From Betaproteobacteria bacterium (GTDB lineage Bacteria; Pseudomonadota; Gammaproteobacteria; Burkholderiales; Burkholderiaceae_D), in NCBI GenBank assembly GCA_016868055.1, contig VGHX01000013.1, positions 1-47,573 of the forward strand: 47,573 nt of DNA. Reading direction: 5' to 3'. The translations under genes were made by a program, and so were the position numbers. Below the pieces are notes generated by a model. It was not told where the DNA came from and did not search any database. It worked only from the letters and a program-made list of their open reading frames with translations. Of the stretch, positions 4,105-45,253 are shown one piece after another; the first letter of the stretch is position 1, and every line of letters begins with the position of its first letter.

Positions 4105-4701
4105 TCATTTCAGCGGTAACGACAGCTGCAGCATCAAGCCTGCGAATCCAAGCATATTGGCTTGCACTTCAAATCCATCGCCCAAATCCCAGCCAAGCGC
4201 AGGTACCACACCCGGCGAAAATCCGTTCGTATTGAACGGGACCTTGTTTTGGTATTTACCGGTGTAGCCATACAGCAGACCCGTAGTCAGCTTAGCATAT
4301 AGCTGCGGATTCCCACCTAAATTCCGATAAACCATACCCCACGGATAATAATAAAGTGATGGCTGCCCGAATGAATTGGTAAAAAATGCAGCGCCAGCGA
4401 CCAGGCCGTTTTCGCGCTCGCGCTCCAGACCAACCAGCCAGACATGCTCATGCTCAGGGCTAGGGCTGAAATGCCGCGTATACGGCGAAAAAATTAGCGC
4501 GCGCCGGTCACCGGGTTCAGGCCGAAGTGAAAAACCGTCGGTCCAGGCATCAGCGGCCGAGCAAGTAGTTGCGCACAGCGTGGTGGACAGCAGAGCGTTG
4601 CGCACCAAATTAAGCAATAAGCCGTAGTTCACCATAACGAGGGATAGCCGGAGGTTGATGCAGTTAAAGGGGGTAATGGATTTTGCGCCGGACATTATCA
4701 T
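4105..4701 (-). CDS. Predicted outer-membrane beta-barrel protein
   Basis: A 198-residue protein with a hydrophobic export signal around residues 25-48 (ending TCSA) and a mature part of alternating aromatic and polar strands (YSPYTRHFSP-like opening, EHVWLVGLE, GAAFFTNSFGQPSLYYYPWG, LYAKLTTGLLYGYTGKY) ending in a hydrophobic LMLQLSLPLK. The layout suits a small outer-membrane barrel related to proteins of betaproteobacteria loosely likened to PagP. PagP catalytic residues cannot be confirmed here. The start is uncertain: ATGs at 4701, 4695 and 4635 are in frame and none has a good ribosome binding site; 4635 gives the more normal signal peptide. Probably cotranscribed with the adhesin-E-like gene. 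Confidence 0.65.
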   Translation of the reverse strand: MIMSGAKSITPFNCINLRLSLVMVNYGLLLNLVRNALLSTTLCATTCSAADAWTDGFSLRPEPGDRRALIFSPYTRHFSPSPEHEHVWLVGLERERENGLVAGAAFFTNSFGQPSLYYYPWGMVYRNLGGNPQLYAKLTTGLLYGYTGKYQNKVPFNTNGFSPGVVPALGWDLGDGFEVQANMLGFAGLMLQLSLPLK

Positions 4702-4814
4702 TTAAGCCAGCAGGCTTCAACTAAAATACCATTGTTTGGACGTGACCCGCGTCCTTGGGCCTTATCTTTTTAACATACCGCCTTGTTGTGTCACCGACCC
4801 CAACTGAAGCATTA

Positions 4815-6410
4815 ATGAAAAAGAGCTTTTTGCTGCTGCTGCTGATCAGCACGGTGGTCAAGCTCTGGTTTGCGGCGTTTTTCCCGTTTACCGGTGATGA
4901 AGCCTATTTTTATCAGTGGGGCGCGCACCCCGACTGGGGTGGTTTTTACGACCACCCGCCGATGGTCGGTTGGTGGCTATGGGCTCTACAGCAAATATCC
5001 TCGCACACGCTAGTGCTGCGTTTACCCGCGGTATTACTGTGGATTGCCGTTGTGTTTGGCATGATGAGTCTATACGGTCATCTGCTCCCGCACCAAACAG
5101 AGCGGCGTTGGCTGCTCGGTAGCTTGTTTCTGTCACTACCATTTACTTGGGCATTTAATCTCATTACTACGGATACGCCGCTGGTCTTGTTTTTGTTTTT
5201 TTCAGGCTACGCTTTTGTCCGGGCTGAATTAGAGAATCGATGGCATTGGTATTCTGCCAGCGGTGTATTGCTAGGACTCGCATTACTGTCGAAATACTTC
5301 GCTGGCTTGTTGGCCATTACTTACGCGATCTATCTATTACCCAGGCGGGGGGGTATTGCGCGGCTATTCCTGGTGGCGGTCTGCGCGCTTCCATTCATGT
5401 TGCTAAATATGATGTGGAATGCGACGCACTGCTGGAACAATATTTTGTTCAATCTGATTAATCGTAATCAAGGCGCACATTTTTCGACAGCACAGGTTTT
5501 ATTGTATGTCGTGATGCTGCTGTACCTGATGACACCTTGGGTATTCGTTGCGCTGTGGCGCCGCTTCAAGCAGGGTGGCAAGTCTAGTCATGATGATATT
5601 GTTGCTACGCCCATCGAAAAGCAGAACAGCTCTGATGCGGAGGGCTTTCACGTCGCCGTCAAAACCAATGGGATAAGTCAATCTTCAGTAGGCGCACACG
5701 GTAGTGATATTGTGATCGCCGCACTCTTTGTCGTTCCCTTTGGACTTTTCCTGCTGCTCTCGTTTTACAAGCAGATCGGGTTGCACTGGCTGCTGGCTTT
5801 TATATCGTTTGTATTTTTGTTTGCAGCAGTGCGACTACCCAATAGTGTTCTTTATCAGTTGAGACGATGGAACCTGTGGTTCGGACTACCCCATCTGCTT
5901 CTTTTGCTCGCGCTGATGTATCTACCCATAGACGTATTCAAACCCTACCGCATCCAGCCGGATATCGTTCTGCATCGCGATGGTAGAGACGTTGTATACG
6001 CCCTGAAACAAGATATGGCGGACGATGCTGTATTGATGACACGATCATATAGCCAATCATCATTACTGGCATATCACGCACAAGCATACATACCGGTATT
6101 CGGATTCGGCAGCTTTCATGCGCGGTTTGATGACGCAATTACTGACTTTCGTCAGCTGGATGGCAAAAACATACGAATCGCCAGCACCAGTGAGATCGAA
6201 GTAGATAGCTTGCGGGCGTATTTTAGTCACGTAAGTGTTCAGGACCGCATGATCAACGGCGCACGGTTTTGGATCGCAGATGGAGAGGGCTTCCGGTTTG
6301 AGCCCTATCGAGCCCAAGTGCTGAGTGCAGTCGCTGAGCGTTATTACAAGGCGCCCTCTTGGCTACCCGTCTATGGCTGCCGCTTTCTTGAAACGTACGG
6401 ATTTATTTAA
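4815..6410 (+). CDS. GT39/ArnT-like integral-membrane glycosyltransferase (GT-C)
   Basis: A 531-residue polytopic membrane protein. ATG 4815 is chosen over an upstream in-frame TTG because the hydrophobic first helix (MKKSFLLLLLISTVVK) begins there. Directly after helix 1 comes FTGDEAYFYQWG, with the Asp-Glu pair that in ArnT, Pmt and Emb-type GT-C enzymes sits in the first periplasmic loop and serves catalysis, followed by the YDHPPM motif of GT39. About 11-12 hydrophobic helices follow; the C-terminal ~130 residues are soluble and periplasmic. Such enzymes take a sugar from a polyprenyl-phosphate donor on the periplasmic side. It converges on, and overlaps by 8 bp, the gtrA-like gene that ends a polyprenyl-phosphoryl-pentose operon, which makes that lipid its likely donor. 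The acceptor is unknown. Confidence 0.85.
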   Translation: MKKSFLLLLLISTVVKLWFAAFFPFTGDEAYFYQWGAHPDWGGFYDHPPMVGWWLWALQQISSHTLVLRLPAVLLWIAVVFGMMSLYGHLLPHQTERRWLLGSLFLSLPFTWAFNLITTDTPLVLFLFFSGYAFVRAELENRWHWYSASGVLLGLALLSKYFAGLLAITYAIYLLPRRGGIARLFLVAVCALPFMLLNMMWNATHCWNNILFNLINRNQGAHFSTAQVLLYVVMLLYLMTPWVFVALWRRFKQGGKSSHDDIVATPIEKQNSSDAEGFHVAVKTNGISQSSVGAHGSDIVIAALFVVPFGLFLLLSFYKQIGLHWLLAFISFVFLFAAVRLPNSVLYQLRRWNLWFGLPHLLLLLALMYLPIDVFKPYRIQPDIVLHRDGRDVVYALKQDMADDAVLMTRSYSQSSLLAYHAQAYIPVFGFGSFHARFDDAITDFRQLDGKNIRIASTSEIEVDSLRAYFSHVSVQDRMINGARFWIADGEGFRFEPYRAQVLSAVAERYYKAPSWLPVYGCRFLETYGFI

Positions 6411-6801
6411 AAGAAAAACGTTTATGCCCGAGGTAACTGGTGAACACCGGGACAACAATACCAACAGCATGAGCGATTTCCGGCACCCAGCGCGTGACAC
6501 CTGCCATTGGCAGCAAATAATAGAGCGCCATACTAATGACCCAAGTCTGTAGTACGGCAACGCCGTTGACCATCACAAAAAACAGCGCGCTGCGTTGAAC
6601 CGATTGGCTACCCTGCGTGAACACAAAGCGACGCGCAAGAATAAAGGCCGTCACCATCCCGGTAAGATAAGCCAGCACCACCGCGCTGGAAAAATCTAAC
6701 CAGCGGTTATATACAATACGCGATCCGAAGTTAACTGCAGCGGCTACCCCACCGGTGAGCAAGAAAGTGAGAAACTCACGACTCACAAAGCTGCGCATCA
6801 T
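6403..6801 (-). CDS. GtrA family membrane protein (polyprenyl-P-sugar flippase-like)
   Basis: A 132-residue protein with four hydrophobic helices, starting FLLTGGVAAAVNFGSR and ending with the family's basic tail SYLGHKRFSFK. GtrA proteins move or hand over polyprenyl-phosphate-linked sugars across the inner membrane; one, Rv3789 of Mycobacterium tuberculosis, lies beside dprE1/dprE2 and works in arabinan assembly. Its ATG overlaps the stop of the preceding FAD-oxidoreductase gene (TAATG), so translation is coupled. It is the last gene of the operon that starts at 12520. Confidence 0.88.
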   Translation of the reverse strand: MMRSFVSREFLTFLLTGGVAAAVNFGSRIVYNRWLDFSSAVVLAYLTGMVTAFILARRFVFTQGSQSVQRSALFFVMVNGVAVLQTWVISMALYYLLPMAGVTRWVPEIAHAVGIVVPVFTSYLGHKRFSFK

Positions 6802-8114
6802 TAAAGCTGACCTCGCGCAGCGTCACGTGCCATTTGGCGACCAAAACCGATACTTTCTGAGATACCACGATCTTCCGGATAGTAGTAAGACGTATCGGCT
6901 ACCCACAGTCCACGTACCGGCAACGCCACCGGCGGTAAGCGATTAAGATAACCCGGCTCACAGATCGGCTGCGCGTGGCGGTAGCGACTGGCGCGAATAT
7001 CAATAAAGTCATCATCCTGCAACGCAGGATTAATAGTTTGCAGATAGCGCTTCACCTTGCCGATAAATACCTCATCCGGTTCGGCATAGTTCGGATGCTC
7101 GCCGGGCATATAAAACGGCACATAAACAATCGCATGATCGAGCGGACGCAAGTTCGAGTACTCGACTAATCCCGGAATATCCATCTCGGGATCATTCACG
7201 TTCAGCCAGAAATTTTCAGTCAGGCGCTGGCGTAGCTTGGCGATAATGCACACCACGGCGATATTTTTTAAGGCAGTGAATTTCTGCGCTACTTCTGGCG
7301 GCAAGTCGGGAATAAGGCGCGTCACGAACGGCAGCGGTACCGTGCTGATCACCTTGTCAAAGTCTTCGACGCCTGATGATGCTTCAACACCTGTAACACG
7401 CCCTTGTGTGATGTTGACACGGCGCGCTGGTGAGCTCAGCCTGATCTCACCACCGTGCTGCTCGATATCGATTTTGATCGCATTCAGCAAAGTGCTGGAC
7501 CCGCCTTCCAGATAGCCCAGCTTCTCACGAAACAAGTTGTAGCGAGAGCGTCCGATTCGCCGAATGCGGCTCCAGATCCAAGCTGCTGACAGGTTGTTGG
7601 CGTAGTCGTAGAACTTGTAATCAAACAGTCGTCGCCACAATACTTCCCATGCTTCATTTCCCACCCAGCGCTTGATCCAGCGACTCGCTTCGACATGATC
7701 TAATAGTCGCCAGTCATCACGCTTGGTGCATAAAAAAGCATGCAAGCCATAACGAAATTTCGCTATCAAAGACAAGCCCTGAAATCCCAGCAAGGCGAAC
7801 GGATTCCCCCAAGGCTGCAAGCGGCGCTGATACCAGTAACCCATTTTCGTCTCGACCCAACGCATCTTATGGGCGATACCAATCTCATCAAGTATTTGCA
7901 AAAAGGCGTGATCGGAAGTGCAATGGAAATGATAATAGCGCTCGATCTGAAGTCCGTTGAAATCGAAGCAGGCGGTCATGCCACCGACCCGGTCATCGGC
8001 CTCAAATACGACCGGGTGATGACCATCACGCGCTAATTGATACGCAACAGCCAGCCCCATCGGGCCGGCACCCAGCACGGCGATTCGCTGCCTACTCGGT
8101 TTGTCAGACGTCAT
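6801..8114 (-). CDS. FAD-dependent amine-oxidase/protoporphyrinogen-oxidase-like protein
   Basis: A 437-residue flavoprotein. Residues 11-40 carry the dinucleotide-binding motif [13 protein letters not shown] with the distal acidic FEADDRVGG; the C-terminus has the second FAD motif, [16 protein letters not shown] followed by a helix. This is the architecture of the flavin amine oxidase, protoporphyrinogen oxidase and UDP-galactopyranose mutase superfamily. No signal peptide, so cytoplasmic. It overlaps gtrA by one base and follows the epimerase-like gene by 2 bp. Homologues recur in bacterial sugar-lipid clusters without a defined reaction; here it could alter the lipid-linked sugar or its nucleotide precursor. 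Heme synthesis is unlikely given the context. Confidence 0.8.
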
Positions 8115-8116
8115 GC

Positions 8117-9067
8117 TTAAAACTCCAGTACCACGGCGCTGTAACGCGGATCACAAAACGTCTCATGGATCGCATCGGCAAATCGGGTCGATGGCACGCC
8201 AAAGATAGATGGCCAATCGATCACCTCGAACTCATCTTTAGCGACCAGTGCAACCAGCTGCTGCGTTGTAAACGGCGGATTGCGATCGAACTGTCCCCAA
8301 ACCCATAGCAAGGCATAAAACAGGCTATAGGGTATTTTCAGGATCAGCGCGCCAGCACGGGTTGCGCGCTTGATCTCGCGAATGATATCGATATAGTCAA
8401 TGCCTTCATGACCCGAGATATTGAATACACCCTCGGTGATGCGCTGCTCGATGCAGCTGATAATGATCTGGCAAAAATCACCAACATACAAAGGTTGTCG
8501 AAGGAAGCGCCCATCACCGGGCACTGGAAACACGGGTACTTTTTTCATGAAACGCGACAACCAGCCCAAGTGTTTGCGATCAAACCAGCCAAACATCAAG
8601 GTAGGACGCAGAATCGGACAGCAGATTCCACTCTCCAGCACCATCTGCTCCTGCGCTTTTTTGGTATTGGTGTAAAAGTCGTCAGCGACAGAGGTCACAA
8701 CCGATGAGCTGATATGCACTAGCTGAAGGTCCTTGCCGCCCTTGATCACATCAAGCAAGTTGCGCGTGGCAATCAGATTATTACACTCAAAATCGACATA
8801 ATCATTACCGCCAATTTGCGCCTGCAGCATCACTACCGTAGCCGCTTGACTGAAATGTCGCTCCCAGTCGCCACGCTCTGCCAGATCGGCGTACTCGGTG
8901 GTCATCTCGGGGTGCAGGGATCGCAGCACCGCCAGATTGGCGCGATGCTTATCCAGCACCACGATGTCGCGGTAACCGCGTGCCTTCAGCCTGACGATCA
9001 AATTCTGGCCGACCAGCCCGGCGCCACCGGGCAGAATAATTTTCTGCAAGTGGTTTGCGTTAGTCAT
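8117..9067 (-). CDS. NAD-dependent epimerase/dehydratase (extended SDR)
   Basis: A 316-residue extended short-chain dehydrogenase/reductase. The Rossmann motif [10 protein letters not shown] is at residues 14-23, the acidic NAD-specificity residue in VVLDKH, and the catalytic Ser-Tyr-Lys triad reads SSS ... YTNTK around residues 130-145. The C-terminal half is the variable substrate domain of nucleotide-sugar epimerases, and [10 protein letters not shown] is typical of them. The ATG follows directly on the TGA of the upstream SDR gene. The substrate is not evident; a nucleotide- or lipid-linked sugar is likely from the operon. Confidence 0.82.
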
Positions 9068-9805
9068 TCAAATATTCAGCTTGTGAAAAATCCAGCGCGG
9101 TAAGTGCTGAACGATGAGCATGATGACTTGCCATTTCGCAGGTACATACGCGACCGGTTTACCCGCTTCAATGGCTTTCACGATCGCGTGCGCTACCTGT
9201 TCAACTTTAGCTAACCCGGCAGGCGCTAAATGCGCTGTCATGGGCGTTGCGGTCGGGCCCGGCTTGATCAGCAATATGTTTACACCGGTGCTGGCAAAGC
9301 GATGCTGCAGCCCCTGCGCGTAGCGCTCGACCATGCCCTTACCTGCGCCATAAACATAATTTGCTTTGCGACCACGGTCTCCCGCCACCGAACCAATCAA
9401 TGCGATCGTTCCGTGCCCTTGCCGGGCGAGCTGCTTGGCAAAGGCTTCGGCAAACAAGGCCGGCGAAACACCATTGATCTGTAAAGCAGCCTGCGCCAGA
9501 TGAATATCCTGCTCGCAGGAGACTTGCTGCGGCAAATCGCCGTGTGCAATCAAAACAATATCGATTCCTAATTGTGCGGCCTGCTCTGCAAGCACCGAAA
9601 TTGCATCAGCACTCAAAAAATCAATATCTACCGTTTGAATAGCCGACTGTGGGCTGCGAACTCGCAGATCATCTGCGATGCGTTGAACACGCGCCAGATC
9701 CCGGCCGACCAGTAAAAAATCGGCTGCCTCGCGCGTCCACAACCGCGCACAATGCTCTGCGATCGCGGAGCTGGCGCCAATAATCACGATCCGCTTTTTG
9801 CTCAA
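9068..9805 (-). CDS. DprE2-like short-chain dehydrogenase (keto-sugar reductase)
   Basis: A 245-residue classical SDR. The frame is open far upstream inside the dprE1-like gene, but the family match starts at a TTG at 9805 (LSKKRIVIIGASSAIAEHCA), one base after that gene's stop, with GGGGA upstream as ribosome binding site. It has the NAD(P) motif GASSAIA, the catalytic Ser of IGSVAG, and Tyr-x-x-x-Lys in YVYGAGK. The C-terminus is hydrophobic and basic (IMLIVQHLPRWIFHKLNI), suited to membrane association with a lipid substrate. Sequence type and its place directly after a DprE1-like oxidase match DprE2, which reduces polyprenyl-phosphoryl-2-keto-erythro-pentofuranose to the arabinose form. 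Confidence 0.82.
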   Translation of the reverse strand: MSKKRIVIIGASSAIAEHCARLWTREAADFLLVGRDLARVQRIADDLRVRSPQSAIQTVDIDFLSADAISVLAEQAAQLGIDIVLIAHGDLPQQVSCEQDIHLAQAALQINGVSPALFAEAFAKQLARQGHGTIALIGSVAGDRGRKANYVYGAGKGMVERYAQGLQHRFASTGVNILLIKPGPTATPMTAHLAPAGLAKVEQVAHAIVKAIEAGKPVAYVPAKWQVIMLIVQHLPRWIFHKLNI

Positions 9806-9806
9806 A

Positions 9807-11093
9807 TTAATTCCCCAACAAACGGCGCGACATCGCCGAGCTAATGCCTGCATCTCGCAGCGGTAAAAATTCTTGTAAGCGCGGGTATCCTGCTTCGAAT
9901 AAGGCACGCGGCATACGCGCATCTTTTGCGGGGTATAAGCGGCCACCCGCCTCCAGCACGATCGCATCGAGCCGCTCGAACAACGCCAGCGTTGGCGCAC
10001 CGGCATTCGGGAAGTCAAGCGCCAGGGTGACCCCGGGACGAGCAAAACTCAACATGCCAACCGCATCGCGCTGACCAAAGGTTTTAAGCACAGCGAGAAA
10101 AGAGCCCATACCCGCACGCCGAATCGTTTTCAACATAGCTTGGATACCTGTAGCGCCTGCTTCGCGCGGCAACACACATTGGTACTGATAAAACCCATGC
10201 GGTCCATACATTCGGTTCCAGTCTTGTATACGGTCCAGGGGATGAAAAAACTGCACATAGTGCTGCAGGCTGCGGGGCTGTGTTTTTTTGAGGTGATAGT
10301 ACATCGCGTTGAACGATCGCAGCGATAGACGATTCACCAGTGACGTCGGCGGTACGAACGGAAAACGCACATCAGCGCGCGATGGCGGCTCGGGCTGATC
10401 AGCAGCGACTGAATTCGCGCGCATGAATATGCCGCGTCCTGACGGGTGCAGGCAATCGATCCACGATACCGTGTGCTCCCAATCGGGTTCCGAGGCATCT
10501 GCCAGCGTGAAGAACTGTTGGAGATCTTGATACGGCAATGTTTCAACATCCAGCCACGGGCCCGGTACGCGACGTAGCTGCAGCTCGGCTTCGACAATCA
10601 CGCCAGTCAGACCCAGGCCACCGACGGTGGCTGCAAACATCGTATCGCCGGGTAGGCAGCTAAGCACTTCACCGCTGGTGCGTGCGAGGGTGAGCTGTGT
10701 GACATGGTCGCCAAAGCAGCCATAGCGGTGATGATTTTTTCCATGAACATCGTTGGCAATGGCGCCGCCTACCGTGACATATTGTGTACCCGGCACCACC
10801 GGCAGCATCCAGCCCCGAGTCACACCGAAACGCTGAATCTCGCGCAGTAATGTTCCCGACTCACACCGCAAACGACCGGTCTGCTCATCAAATGCAATAA
10901 AGCGGTCGAGTGATCGCAGGTCCCACAAGGTACCACCTGGGTTCAGACAAACATCACCGTAGCTGCGGCCCATACCAAACGCGAGGCCTTGGCGCTGGCC
11001 GGAGATATCACCATGTACGCGAGCCCTATCGGCGAGTAACTGCATGCGGTGGTCATGAATACCAAGTCGCCCCCAGGAGCCGACCGCTACCAT
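9807..11093 (-). CDS. DprE1-like FAD oxidase (polyprenyl-phosphoryl-ribose 2'-epimerase subunit)
   Basis: A 428-residue vanillyl-alcohol-oxidase-type flavoprotein. It carries GRSYGD, the PGT...VTVGGAIA FAD-binding stretch, and HGKNHH (His about 117), a set characteristic of DprE1. ATVGGLGLTG follows the DprE1 ATVGGNGLTG motif. Toward the C-terminus TLALDFP matches the mycobacterial NICVDFP motif, and YPAKDAR keeps the active-site lysine. At the position of the benzothiazinone-reactive cysteine of M. tuberculosis DprE1 there is Ala (about residue 358). DprE1 oxidises the C2 hydroxyl of polyprenyl-phosphoryl-ribose. ATG 11093 is chosen since GAGGA lies 5 bases upstream; ATG 11099 is also possible. 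Overlaps the HAD-UbiA gene. Confidence 0.85.
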   Translation of the reverse strand: MVAVGSWGRLGIHDHRMQLLADRARVHGDISGQRQGLAFGMGRSYGDVCLNPGGTLWDLRSLDRFIAFDEQTGRLRCESGTLLREIQRFGVTRGWMLPVVPGTQYVTVGGAIANDVHGKNHHRYGCFGDHVTQLTLARTSGEVLSCLPGDTMFAATVGGLGLTGVIVEAELQLRRVPGPWLDVETLPYQDLQQFFTLADASEPDWEHTVSWIDCLHPSGRGIFMRANSVAADQPEPPSRADVRFPFVPPTSLVNRLSLRSFNAMYYHLKKTQPRSLQHYVQFFHPLDRIQDWNRMYGPHGFYQYQCVLPREAGATGIQAMLKTIRRAGMGSFLAVLKTFGQRDAVGMLSFARPGVTLALDFPNAGAPTLALFERLDAIVLEAGGRLYPAKDARMPRALFEAGYPRLQEFLPLRDAGISSAMSRRLLGN

Positions 11094-12520
11094 GTCCATC
11101 CTCGTGAGCCGACTAGCAGAACGCCGAAGAAAACTACGCCTGATATCAGACCAACCCGATCGCGCAGAGCGAATACCAAGGGGTCATCATGCATCTCGCC
11201 GCGATGCGCTTTCATCCATATGCGACTAATCCAATACAGCAGCACCGGCACTGCTGCCCAGATCAGTTCTGGCGAGCGATACAAGCGGACGACTGCTTCA
11301 CTGTTCAGATAGAGCGCTAACACCAGCACGGAAGCATAGCCAGACATCAGACCAAGCATCTGCACCAGTGACGCATCCGACGTCAGATAGCCACGTCCAT
11401 GTGCCCGTTCGCTGCCCGATTTAACTTGCACATCAAGCTCGGCATAGCGCTTGACGAACGCCAAGGACAAAAAGAAGAACGCAGAAAAAGCCAATAACCA
11501 GAACGAGAGCGGTATACCCAGCGCCGCAGCGCCTGCAATGACACGCAGTGTGTAAAGCATGGCCAGCGCGAGGCAATCAATAATCACTAGCCGCTTCAGT
11601 ACCAGCGAGTAGGCGCACGTCAGTACAAAATAAAACAACAGCCAACCACTAAATGCCCAGCCTACGGGTACCGCACACAGCAAAGCGCACACCAGCAATA
11701 CTGGCACCAGCGCGACACCCAGCGCGACTGGTATCTGCCCTGCAGCAAACGGCCGATTGCGCTTGCGCGGGTGCTGTCGGTCACTATCAAGATCCAGCAG
11801 ATCATTCGCTACATACACTGCAGAAGCGCACAAACTGAAAGCGACGAAAGCCAGCAACAAGCGCGGTAACGTCTCGCCATCAGGAATCATGTGCGCCGCC
11901 ATCGGCGCCATGAATAATAAAAAATTCTTGGCCCATTGATGCGGCCGCAGCTCACCAATCAAAGCTTCAACAAATCGGTGGTTGGTCTCGAACACCTGAT
12001 CAATCTCGGCGATAGTTTTTGCTTTTCTGGTGACATCAGCCGACGCATTGACGACGACTGCCTTGCGTGCGCGCTGCCAGACCTGCAGATCGACCGCGGC
12101 ATTACCCGCATAGTCAAAGCCCCCGGCGCCAAACAGTCGCTCGAGTGCATTGGCTTTTTTTGCACCGCCGAGATTGGTATTGCCGTCGCTGGCAATAACC
12201 GCATCAAAGAGTCCCAAGTGCTCGGAGATGGCAATGGCAATGCTGTGATCTGCTGCAGTACACAGCACCAACTTGCGACCCTGTGCGCGTTGCTCGGTCA
12301 GCCAGGTGATGAGCGGCTGGTGGTAGGGCAGCGTGGCGGGGTCGAATCGCGACAACGCTGCCAGCCGCTGCTTCAGCACCGCCTTGCCCTGTAACAGCCA
12401 GAACGGCAGCTTGAGCAACGCCAACGGATGCTCCCGCAGCGCGCGCAAGGCGGCTTCATGCAAAGTGTCCGAGCGGACCAGCGTGCCGTCGAGATCGACA
12501 GCGAGCGGGATGGCGTTCAA
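11087..12520 (-). CDS. HAD phosphatase-UbiA fusion (polyprenyl-phosphate phosphoribosyltransferase)
   Basis: A 477-residue fusion. Residues 1-185 are a HAD hydrolase (nucleophile motif DLDGT at 9-13, LCTAAD, and GNAAVDLQVW). Residues 186-477 are a UbiA prenyltransferase with LRPHQWAKNF, the Asp-rich motif NDLLDLDSD (239-247) and HPRKRNRP, the signature of decaprenyl-phosphate 5-phosphoribosyltransferase (Rv3806c type), and about eight membrane helices. Predicted chemistry: PRPP plus polyprenyl phosphate to polyprenyl-phosphoryl-5-phosphoribose, then dephosphorylation by the HAD domain. HAD-UbiA fusions with dprE1-type genes are known, for example in the Azorhizobium noe genes for Nod-factor arabinosylation. 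Start is TTG 12520 with AAGGA 7 bases upstream. First gene of the operon. Confidence 0.85.
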   Translation of the reverse strand: MNAIPLAVDLDGTLVRSDTLHEAALRALREHPLALLKLPFWLLQGKAVLKQRLAALSRFDPATLPYHQPLITWLTEQRAQGRKLVLCTAADHSIAIAISEHLGLFDAVIASDGNTNLGGAKKANALERLFGAGGFDYAGNAAVDLQVWQRARKAVVVNASADVTRKAKTIAEIDQVFETNHRFVEALIGELRPHQWAKNFLLFMAPMAAHMIPDGETLPRLLLAFVAFSLCASAVYVANDLLDLDSDRQHPRKRNRPFAAGQIPVALGVALVPVLLVCALLCAVPVGWAFSGWLLFYFVLTCAYSLVLKRLVIIDCLALAMLYTLRVIAGAAALGIPLSFWLLAFSAFFFLSLAFVKRYAELDVQVKSGSERAHGRGYLTSDASLVQMLGLMSGYASVLVLALYLNSEAVVRLYRSPELIWAAVPVLLYWISRIWMKAHRGEMHDDPLVFALRDRVGLISGVVFFGVLLVGSRGWTW

Positions 12521-44892: not shown

Positions 44893-45253
44893 GGGGGTGA
44901 CCTGGTTTCGACAGGGGTTGCGAAGCAGCGTAGGGCATGCCGAGGACTGGTGACCTCGTAAATCCAGCCGGAAATCAATAACTGCAAACGATCACTCGTA
45001 CGCAGTAGCCGCTTAATTGCGGCTTCCCTCACACCGCTTCGTCCCTGGGGCGGGCCAGCAATGGCACGTGAGGTCATATACAGGGAATCGCGTTATGCCG
45101 GGTCACTTGGTATGGCGTTAAATTTAGGTGACTCGCCTTGTCGCAGCGTGTGCGTCCGCGTCGTCAGGGTCAAAATCAAACGACAACACTAAGCATGTAG
45201 AACTGCCTGTAGAGGGCTTTTGGACGCGGGTTCGATTCCCGCCGCCTCCACCA
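44893..45253 (+). ncRNA. ssrA: Transfer-messenger RNA (tmRNA)
   Basis: 361 nt. The 5' end GGGGGTG pairs with CGCCTCC before the 3' ACCA, including a G3-U pair, the alanine identity element. The D-like CCTGGTTTCGAC and the T-arm GGGTTCGATTCCC are present. The resume codon GCA starts the tag frame: Ala-Asn-Asp-His-Ser-Tyr-Ala-Val-Ala-Ala, stop TAA in the loop of the GCCGC/GCGGC hairpin. It rescues stalled ribosomes with SmpB and marks products for ClpXP. The tag departs from the usual betaproteobacterial ANDERFALAA/ANDETYALAA forms. Confidence 0.96.

Follow-up and report, generated by a model that had tools for sequence, protein, structure and literature searches.

A redox gene pair accompanying DprE1 homologues in a predicted lipid-linked pentofuranose cassette of proteobacteria

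What do two additional redox genes do in a gene cluster that already encodes homologues of DprE1 and DprE2? The question is raised by a stretch of 47,573 nucleotides (contig VGHX01000013.1 of assembly GCA_016868055.1, Betaproteobacteria bacterium), hereafter the window, whose source assembly measures 2.7 Mb and is 99% complete and 2.24% contaminated. Six genes on the minus strand (12520-6403) converge there with a glycosyltransferase gene of the GT-C type on the plus strand (4815-6410). The cluster is predicted to make a polyprenyl-phosphate-linked pentofuranose, which the products of the two additional genes, here named epi and fad, would further alter before it is handed to an exchangeable periplasmic glycosyltransferase; a probability of roughly two thirds is assigned to this reading.

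A preliminary description of the window had placed seven genes here, and both their coordinates and the Pfam families, which are, in gene order, HAD and UbiA, FAD_binding_4, adh_short, Epimerase, Amino_oxidase, GtrA_DPMS_TM and PMT_2, agree with it. Successive minus-strand genes are spaced by -13, +1, 0, +2 and -1 bases, while gtrA and the GT-C gene overlap tail to tail by 8 bases. The overlapping and abutting order, also pointed out there, recurs in dozens of loci from beta-, gamma- and alphaproteobacteria and is not due to chance; the label "betaproteobacterial", given to the cluster in the same description, is thus too narrow.

The predicted donor pathway

In the proposed scheme, the UbiA domain would convert phosphoribosyl pyrophosphate (PRPP) into polyprenyl-phosphate-ribose, the fused HAD domain would take off the 5-phosphate, and the DprE1-like and DprE2-like enzymes would invert C2, giving polyprenyl-phosphate-D-arabinofuranose. 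The fourth step, which distinguishes the cassette, would be carried out by epi and fad, a second pair of flavoenzyme and short-chain dehydrogenase/reductase (SDR), with the arabino lipid or its 2-keto intermediate as substrate; most likely, a different carbon would be oxidised and then reduced again. The lipid would then be flipped by the GtrA protein, and its pentose moved by the GT-C enzyme onto an extracytoplasmic glycan. From homology and conserved catalytic residues we infer the first three steps, and from co-occurrence and block loss the existence of the fourth and its dependence on DprE1; the chemistry of the fourth step, and the last two steps, are put forward as predictions.

The first protein, a fusion of a HAD phosphatase and a UbiA-type polyprenyl-phosphate phosphoribosyltransferase (PPPRS; 11087..12520, minus strand, 477 residues), matches the NF006088 model over its full length (residues 2-471), with 661.5 bits against a cut-off of 351. 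It scores 177.3 bits with the decaprenyl-phosphate phosphoribosyltransferase model, under that model's cut-off of 207, and 39.3 bits with ubiA_proteo, the ubiquinone type. Only two PDB entries, 8j8j (E 5.6e-32) and 8j8k, are related to it at E 0.001, both of them decaprenyl-phosphate phosphoribosyltransferase. In the preliminary description, a grouping of the UbiA domain with ubiquinone enzymes had been named as a result that would overturn the proposed pathway: judged by these scores, the domain belongs with the decaprenyl-phosphate phosphoribosyltransferases, not with the ubiquinone enzymes. The closest named relatives of HAD-UbiA, among 80 of 166, come from metagenome-assembled genomes of Oxalobacteraceae and Burkholderiaceae.

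A Citrobacter protein of the same HAD-UbiA architecture converts PRPP into polyprenyl-phosphate-ribofuranose, the acceptor used being farnesyl phosphate (Kelly et al. 2024, PMC11127046), and NF006088 would seem to correspond to the PPPRS of that paper. In the alignment of the family, N239, D240, D243, D247, R358 and E361 of the UbiA domain are kept in all 34 rows, while D9 and D11 of the HAD domain are kept in 33, the remaining row having a gap. The residues mutated in ORF15 of C. youngae are N247, D248, D251, D255, R366, E369 and, in the HAD domain, D18 (PMC11127046); their counterparts in the window protein, D9 for D18 among them, were assigned by motif spacing. The ORF15 mutants R366A and E369A are still active (PMC11127046).

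The second protein, a DprE1-like oxidase of lipid-linked pentose, dependent on flavin adenine dinucleotide (FAD; 9807..11099, minus strand, 430 residues), has DprE1 as its top PDB match (4aut, E 6.6e-70). In its HGKNHH motif, H119, K121 and H124 are found in 104 out of 104 rows and H123 in 103; K392, in the AKD stretch, is found in 102, with two gaps. Roles in flavin linkage and in catalysis presumably fall to this motif and the AKD lysine. The Cys in the VCVDFP stretch of 4aut is replaced by Ala in the window protein; this Cys we take to be the target of benzothiazinones. The third protein, a DprE2-like SDR reductase (9068..9805, minus strand, 245 residues), was given a TTG start at 9805, the longest frame starting at 10045. 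DprE2 is its top PDB match (21gq chain C, E 4.7e-28), its score with NF005489 is just under the cut-off (251.2 versus 267), and Ser139, Tyr152 and Lys156 are kept in 102 out of 102 rows. DprE1 and DprE2 homologues occur in candidate systems whose glycans contain arabinofuranose (PMC11127046), and polyprenyl-phosphate-D-arabinofuranose is a likely intermediate of the pathway, as far as homology can tell. Such an intermediate is not new in kind, systems of this sort being known since 2024 (PMC11127046).

The two additional genes follow. epi (8117..9067, minus strand, 316 residues) encodes an extended SDR of the Pfam Epimerase family, predicted to be a reductase or epimerase of the lipid-linked pentose: the GxxGxxG, Ser and YxxxK residues are present in all 43 aligned rows, and the best matches of its profile are dTDP-glucose dehydratase and NDUFA9-type proteins. 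fad (6801..8114, minus strand, 437 residues) encodes a PRK07233-type flavoprotein of the amine-oxidase/phytoene-desaturase superfamily (Pfam Amino_oxidase), scoring 563.8 bits with NF005560 against a cut-off of 252, and predicted, from its co-occurrence with epi, to be the oxidase working with it. Its profile finds phytoene desaturase as top PDB match, and protoporphyrinogen oxidase and amine oxidases are also nearest solved relatives among the matches listed. Mean column identity across loci is 74% for fad, 77% for epi and 69% for HAD-UbiA, in alignments that differ in make-up.

Co-occurrence of epi and fad with DprE1

The distribution of the pair was analyzed in genomes, in plasmids and in individual loci. 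Two even samples were used, 114 genomes of the class and 130 of the order. In the former, with thresholds of E 1e-60 for PPPRS (NF006088) and fad (NF005560), 1e-50 for DprE1 and 1e-30 for epi, PPPRS is found in 23 genomes, DprE1 in 25 (none of the 25 above the curated cut-off), fad in 8 and epi in 6. All six epi genomes also have fad, PPPRS and DprE1; the two further fad matches are paralogues of 27-29% identity in other surroundings. In the order sample, where all thresholds were E 1e-60, 16 genomes have PPPRS, four have epi and three have fad. The one epi genome missing from the fad count, G153, features a fad of 26% and a UbiA of 35% identity beside epi, dprE1 and dprE2. Taken together, the samples contain nine distinct epi genomes, all nine with fad, a DprE1 homologue and a PPPRS-type UbiA (UbiA and fad being divergent in G153). 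In one genome, G032, epi, fad, PPPRS and dprE1 lie on four separate contigs, and co-occurrence is therefore not just operon hitch-hiking.

Distant paralogues of fad, with 27-29% identity, are found at two loci, L091 and L092, where the neighbours are a GT2 gene, or an LPG_synthase_TM protein together with a nucleotidyltransferase and a protein of 655 residues. Another lipid-sugar pathway is perhaps encoded there.

In a collection of 72,556 plasmid records, matches at any level are found in 11 records for fad and in 81 for epi. The records with fad at 44% identity or above are the same seven as those with epi at 50% or above: five are annotated with ubiA, FAD-binding oxidoreductase, SDR, epi, fad and gtrA, in that order, and in the two without annotation ubiA, dprE1, epi and fad scored present. 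The same six-gene order is found on Burkholderia and alphaproteobacterial plasmids. Plasmid records with HAD-UbiA relatives as such number 102, including 36 from Rhizobium, whereas close epi and fad are limited to 7. A search of phage records returned a sole record, MT837543.1 from human faeces, whose partial UbiA-like match covers 34% of the query at 37.8% identity.

At the level of loci, 119 ubiA loci were collected, 80 by likeness to HAD-UbiA (80 of 166 relatives) and 39 by searches with ubiA, fad, epi or GT-C. Both genes are present in 73, neither in 27, and 19 are cut by a contig end; among the cut ones, 17 have neither gene and two (L053, L016) have one. None of the 100 loci that allow a verdict thus contains a single gene of the pair. 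All 73 loci with epi and fad contain dprE1, 68 of them contain gtrA, and in most the pair is found inside the operon, between dprE2 and gtrA. Where the pair is missing, dprE1 is present at 16 of the 27 loci and missing from 11, counted per locus: the genomes of three of the 11 (L101, L105, L109) have dprE1 elsewhere. The pair is therefore optional for a DprE pathway, yet it is always accompanied by DprE1, which suggests that its substrate is the lipid in arabino configuration or the 2-keto intermediate. The possibility that epi and fad are chance neighbours was rejected on the co-occurrence in genomes, plasmids and loci.

Two close relatives of the window locus, L005 and L006, whose HAD-UbiA is 92% identical, keep ubiA, dprE1, dprE2, gtrA and GT-C but miss epi and fad: gtrA begins directly after the stop codon of dprE2. 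Searches in the rest of the two assemblies, whose completeness is not given, found neither fad nor epi, while another close relative, L049, has both. The HAD-UbiA tree, a quick one with many long branches, was built from 98 of the 100 loci plus the window, two short rows having been dropped, and was used only for the position of L005 and L006, which nest among carriers of the pair. Because of this nesting, the two genes look like having been lost as one block from an otherwise standing pathway. In the same tree, five loci (L105, L128, L129, L130, L132) form a separate UbiA group on a long branch; four of the five match just the UbiA half of NF006088, and all five have a homologue of the window GT-C.

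Transferases, acceptors and surroundings

The last minus-strand gene, gtrA (6403..6801, 132 residues), encodes a GtrA-family small membrane protein, a predicted flippase of the lipid-linked sugar (PF04138, 56.2 bits, cut-off 26.1). The converging gene (4815..6410, plus strand, 531 residues, start taken at 4815 in a frame beginning at 4755) encodes a PMT_2-type GT-C (PF13231, 61.7 bits, cut-off 26.1), predicted, also from its location beside a PPPRS-type UbiA, to transfer the lipid-linked pentose. Relatives of this GT-C are found in 17 out of 130 order genomes, with a PPPRS-type UbiA within about 7 kb in 8 of the 10 contexts inspected; in the remaining two, ubiA is on another contig (G189) or none is nearby (G146). 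Some of the GT-C clusters have dprE genes (L127, L129, L130), others none visible (L098, L126, L128, L132); the one at L098 consists of PPPRS, an EamA/SMR-type small transporter and GT-C. This family would thus go with both ribose-type and arabinose-type donors.

Most other clusters with epi and fad feature instead a polytopic protein, encoded mostly between dprE2 and epi, here called a slot protein. BLAST leaves these in at least five separate, mutually unlike groups (examples are L012, L020, L022, L028, L041 and L052). When ten proteins from related loci were compared with Pfam, no match was found for seven of the slot type and for L025:17980-20241. The two lying outside the slot belong to MBOAT (L031) and LPG_synthase_TM (L020). 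L093 has a slot protein that likewise matches no Pfam family. Profiles of the window GT-C family and of the largest slot family find no PDB chain at E 1, and compared with each other they give a probability of 0.4%. Among the 71 loci with ubiA, dprE1, dprE2 and gtrA, nine have a window-type GT-C, 49 a large polytopic gene inside, 13 neither and none both (Fisher p 6.7e-6, phylogeny ignored). Our reading is that a single donor cassette is combined with exchangeable transferases, where the conserved chemistry would lie on the donor side and the variable part on the acceptor side. The slot proteins may be GT-C enzymes; the profile comparison with the window GT-C was negative. Among them may be undescribed families of glycosyltransferases that Pfam does not cover.

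Ten hand-picked flanking proteins from five loci were inspected: nine belong to sugar-nucleotide, sugar-phosphate, glycosyltransferase, flippase or methyltransferase families, which suggests polysaccharide acceptors. Polysaccharide genes, for instance rfbA and those for rhamnan synthesis or for pseudaminic acid, are found in the vicinity of three of the five annotated plasmid loci. A Pfam scan of ten window proteins yielded no pilin family and no Emb/Aft arabinosyltransferase, no genome-wide search for the latter having been made.

Near the GT-C gene, the window encodes a protein of 198 residues (4105-4701), without Pfam match and resembling, by eye, a small outer-membrane protein; it is also found near GT-C in L005, L006, L008, L017, L027, L049 and L051. 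A scan for promoters and terminators was at background (7 promoter-like sites versus 7.7 expected, 13 terminator-like sites versus 12.6). A tmRNA gene is present at 44893-45253 on the plus strand, with the tag peptide ANDHSYAVAA.

Alternative readings and known systems

Several observations weigh against the predicted scheme. The second and third proteins are called homologues of DprE1 and DprE2, rather than certified members, because both miss the NCBIfam equivalog cut-offs (335.7 bits versus 500 for NF053785; 153.7 versus 250 for NF053786). Comparison of epi and fad with solved structures gave no close relative indicating a substrate, and the nearest ones of fad do not point to a sugar. NF005560 is above its cut-off in two genomes, G006 and G024, without matches to PPPRS or DprE1, and two archaea among 14 control genomes also match it, so that the family as a whole extends beyond this pathway. 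The UbiA and fad of G153 are divergent, below the search thresholds; the 119 loci were partly gathered through fad, epi or GT-C themselves; and the co-occurrence counts are not corrected for phylogeny. As to the exchange of transferases, 13 of 71 loci are without a window-type GT-C and also without a large polytopic gene in the cluster, and an acceptor glycan for the pentose was looked for and none was found.

That the cluster would make a lipid-linked D-pentofuranose, as the preliminary description had it, is well supported by the UbiA and DprE homologies; that description left the two redox genes without a role, though they form a pair tied to DprE1. This tie argues that the product is probably not plain arabinofuranose, and a flavin oxidase with an SDR reductase may be seen as the simplest parallel to DprE1 with DprE2. 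A more specific version is tentative, and on balance doubtful: after DprE1 and DprE2, fad would oxidise and epi reduce, as a second "DprE-like" redox epimerase, giving a lipid-linked pentofuranose of a configuration other than ribo, arabino or xylo; inversion at C3 would give polyprenyl-phosphate-D-lyxofuranose. It is unlikely that the pathway ends instead at plain polyprenyl-phosphate-D-arabinofuranose, with epi and fad acting on something else that goes with it, for instance the polyprenyl chain or the glycan that serves as acceptor: the pair lies mostly inside the operon, between dprE2 and gtrA, while the GT-C candidates, and presumably the acceptors too, differ, and no locus with both genes lacks dprE1. 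The otherwise complete pathway of L005 and L006 would nevertheless fit such an ending, as would the superfamily of fad, which includes phytoene desaturase, its best PDB profile match, and the surroundings of its distant paralogues at L091 and L092, described above.

Epi might also act alone, as a C3 epimerase like ORF13 of Citrobacter, giving lipid-linked lyxofuranose together with DprE1 and DprE2 and leaving to fad a separate role. ORF13 is a GalE-like SDR in a pathway of this kind, changing a ribofuranose side chain to xylofuranose (PMC11127046), and epi, compared with it by description, has motifs of the same kind; epi without fad is found in none of the 100 uncut loci, which makes a stand-alone epimerase rather unlikely. 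An alteration of ring size by fad, in the manner of UDP-galactopyranose mutase, would agree with a flavoprotein in a sugar pathway; no mutase is found among the 60 PDB matches listed, out of 113, for its profile, nor among the Pfam families found or the 25 NCBIfam families listed, out of 36, and this reading is very unlikely. As for HAD-UbiA being a quinone-type prenyltransferase, in a cluster that is not a sugar pathway, the UbiA fold is shared and nothing else speaks for it. A ubiquinone-type identity was rejected on the scores (39.3 bits with ubiA_proteo versus 661.5 with NF006088 and 177.3 with the decaprenyl-phosphate enzymes). Three other UbiA-fold genes in the genome each score above HAD-UbiA on Pfam UbiA, so that a quinone role for it is not needed, and with DprE1 and DprE2 homologues in the same operon the probability left to this explanation is minimal.

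Mycobacterial arabinan is the best-known case in which pentofuranose is supplied by lipid-linked donors; recently, such donors have also been demonstrated for O antigens of Gram-negative bacteria (PMC11127046). Among the papers listed by literature searches on lyxofuranose, D-Araf O-polysaccharides, PRK07233/PRK08238 and DprE1/DprE2 with betaproteobacteria, none dealt with this cassette. A system of its kind is treated in PMC11127046 alone, while PMC10412643 and PMC12826051, in the excerpts available, have no bearing on the locus.

In the mycobacterial decaprenyl-phosphoryl-arabinose pathway (Rv3806c, Rv3807c, DprE1, DprE2, Rv3789), the transferase, oxidase and reductase are homologous to those of the window, whereas the phosphatase is, in the window, a fused HAD domain, and epi and fad are extra; NF005560, the fad family, has no match in the Corynebacterium glutamicum control genome. 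Rv3789 we take to be a GtrA-type protein. It is called a member of the SMR family in PMC11127046. An undecaprenyl-phosphate-arabinofuranose donor, made through a PPPRS, is likewise proposed for type IV pilin arabinosylation in Pseudomonas (the PSPA7_6246 system), where the PPPRS of P. aeruginosa, unlike HAD-UbiA, has no HAD fusion (PMC11127046).

Much is also shared with the "three-component" extracytoplasmic pentofuranose systems, such as ORF12-ORF15 of Citrobacter youngae O1/O2 (Kelly et al. 2024, PMC11127046), which have in common a HAD and UbiA fusion making polyprenyl-phosphate-ribofuranose, a flippase, a GT-C and, where the glycan contains arabinofuranose, DprE1/E2 homologues. As in these systems, a PPPRS, a predicted flippase (gtrA, PF04138) and a predicted GT-C (PMT_2) are encoded in one stretch of the window, and the two donor types of the window GT-C family recall the donor promiscuity of Citrobacter ORF12 (PMC11127046). 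In such systems the GT-C is classed in family GT136; that of the window matches PMT_2. Xanthomonas and Bacillus systems with several candidate epimerases or GT-Cs are also mentioned there. The window differs from the Citrobacter system in having GtrA in place of a MATE flippase, a PMT_2-type GT-C and the added epi and fad. What is new here is the addition of this pair to a known kind of system: a widely conserved redox pair, never seen apart from DprE1 in loci with both genes, suggests that many proteobacteria make a sugar donor not yet described, with the testable prediction that two genes alter one lipid-linked sugar, and the interchanging slot proteins offer starting points in the search for glycosyltransferase families that Pfam does not cover.

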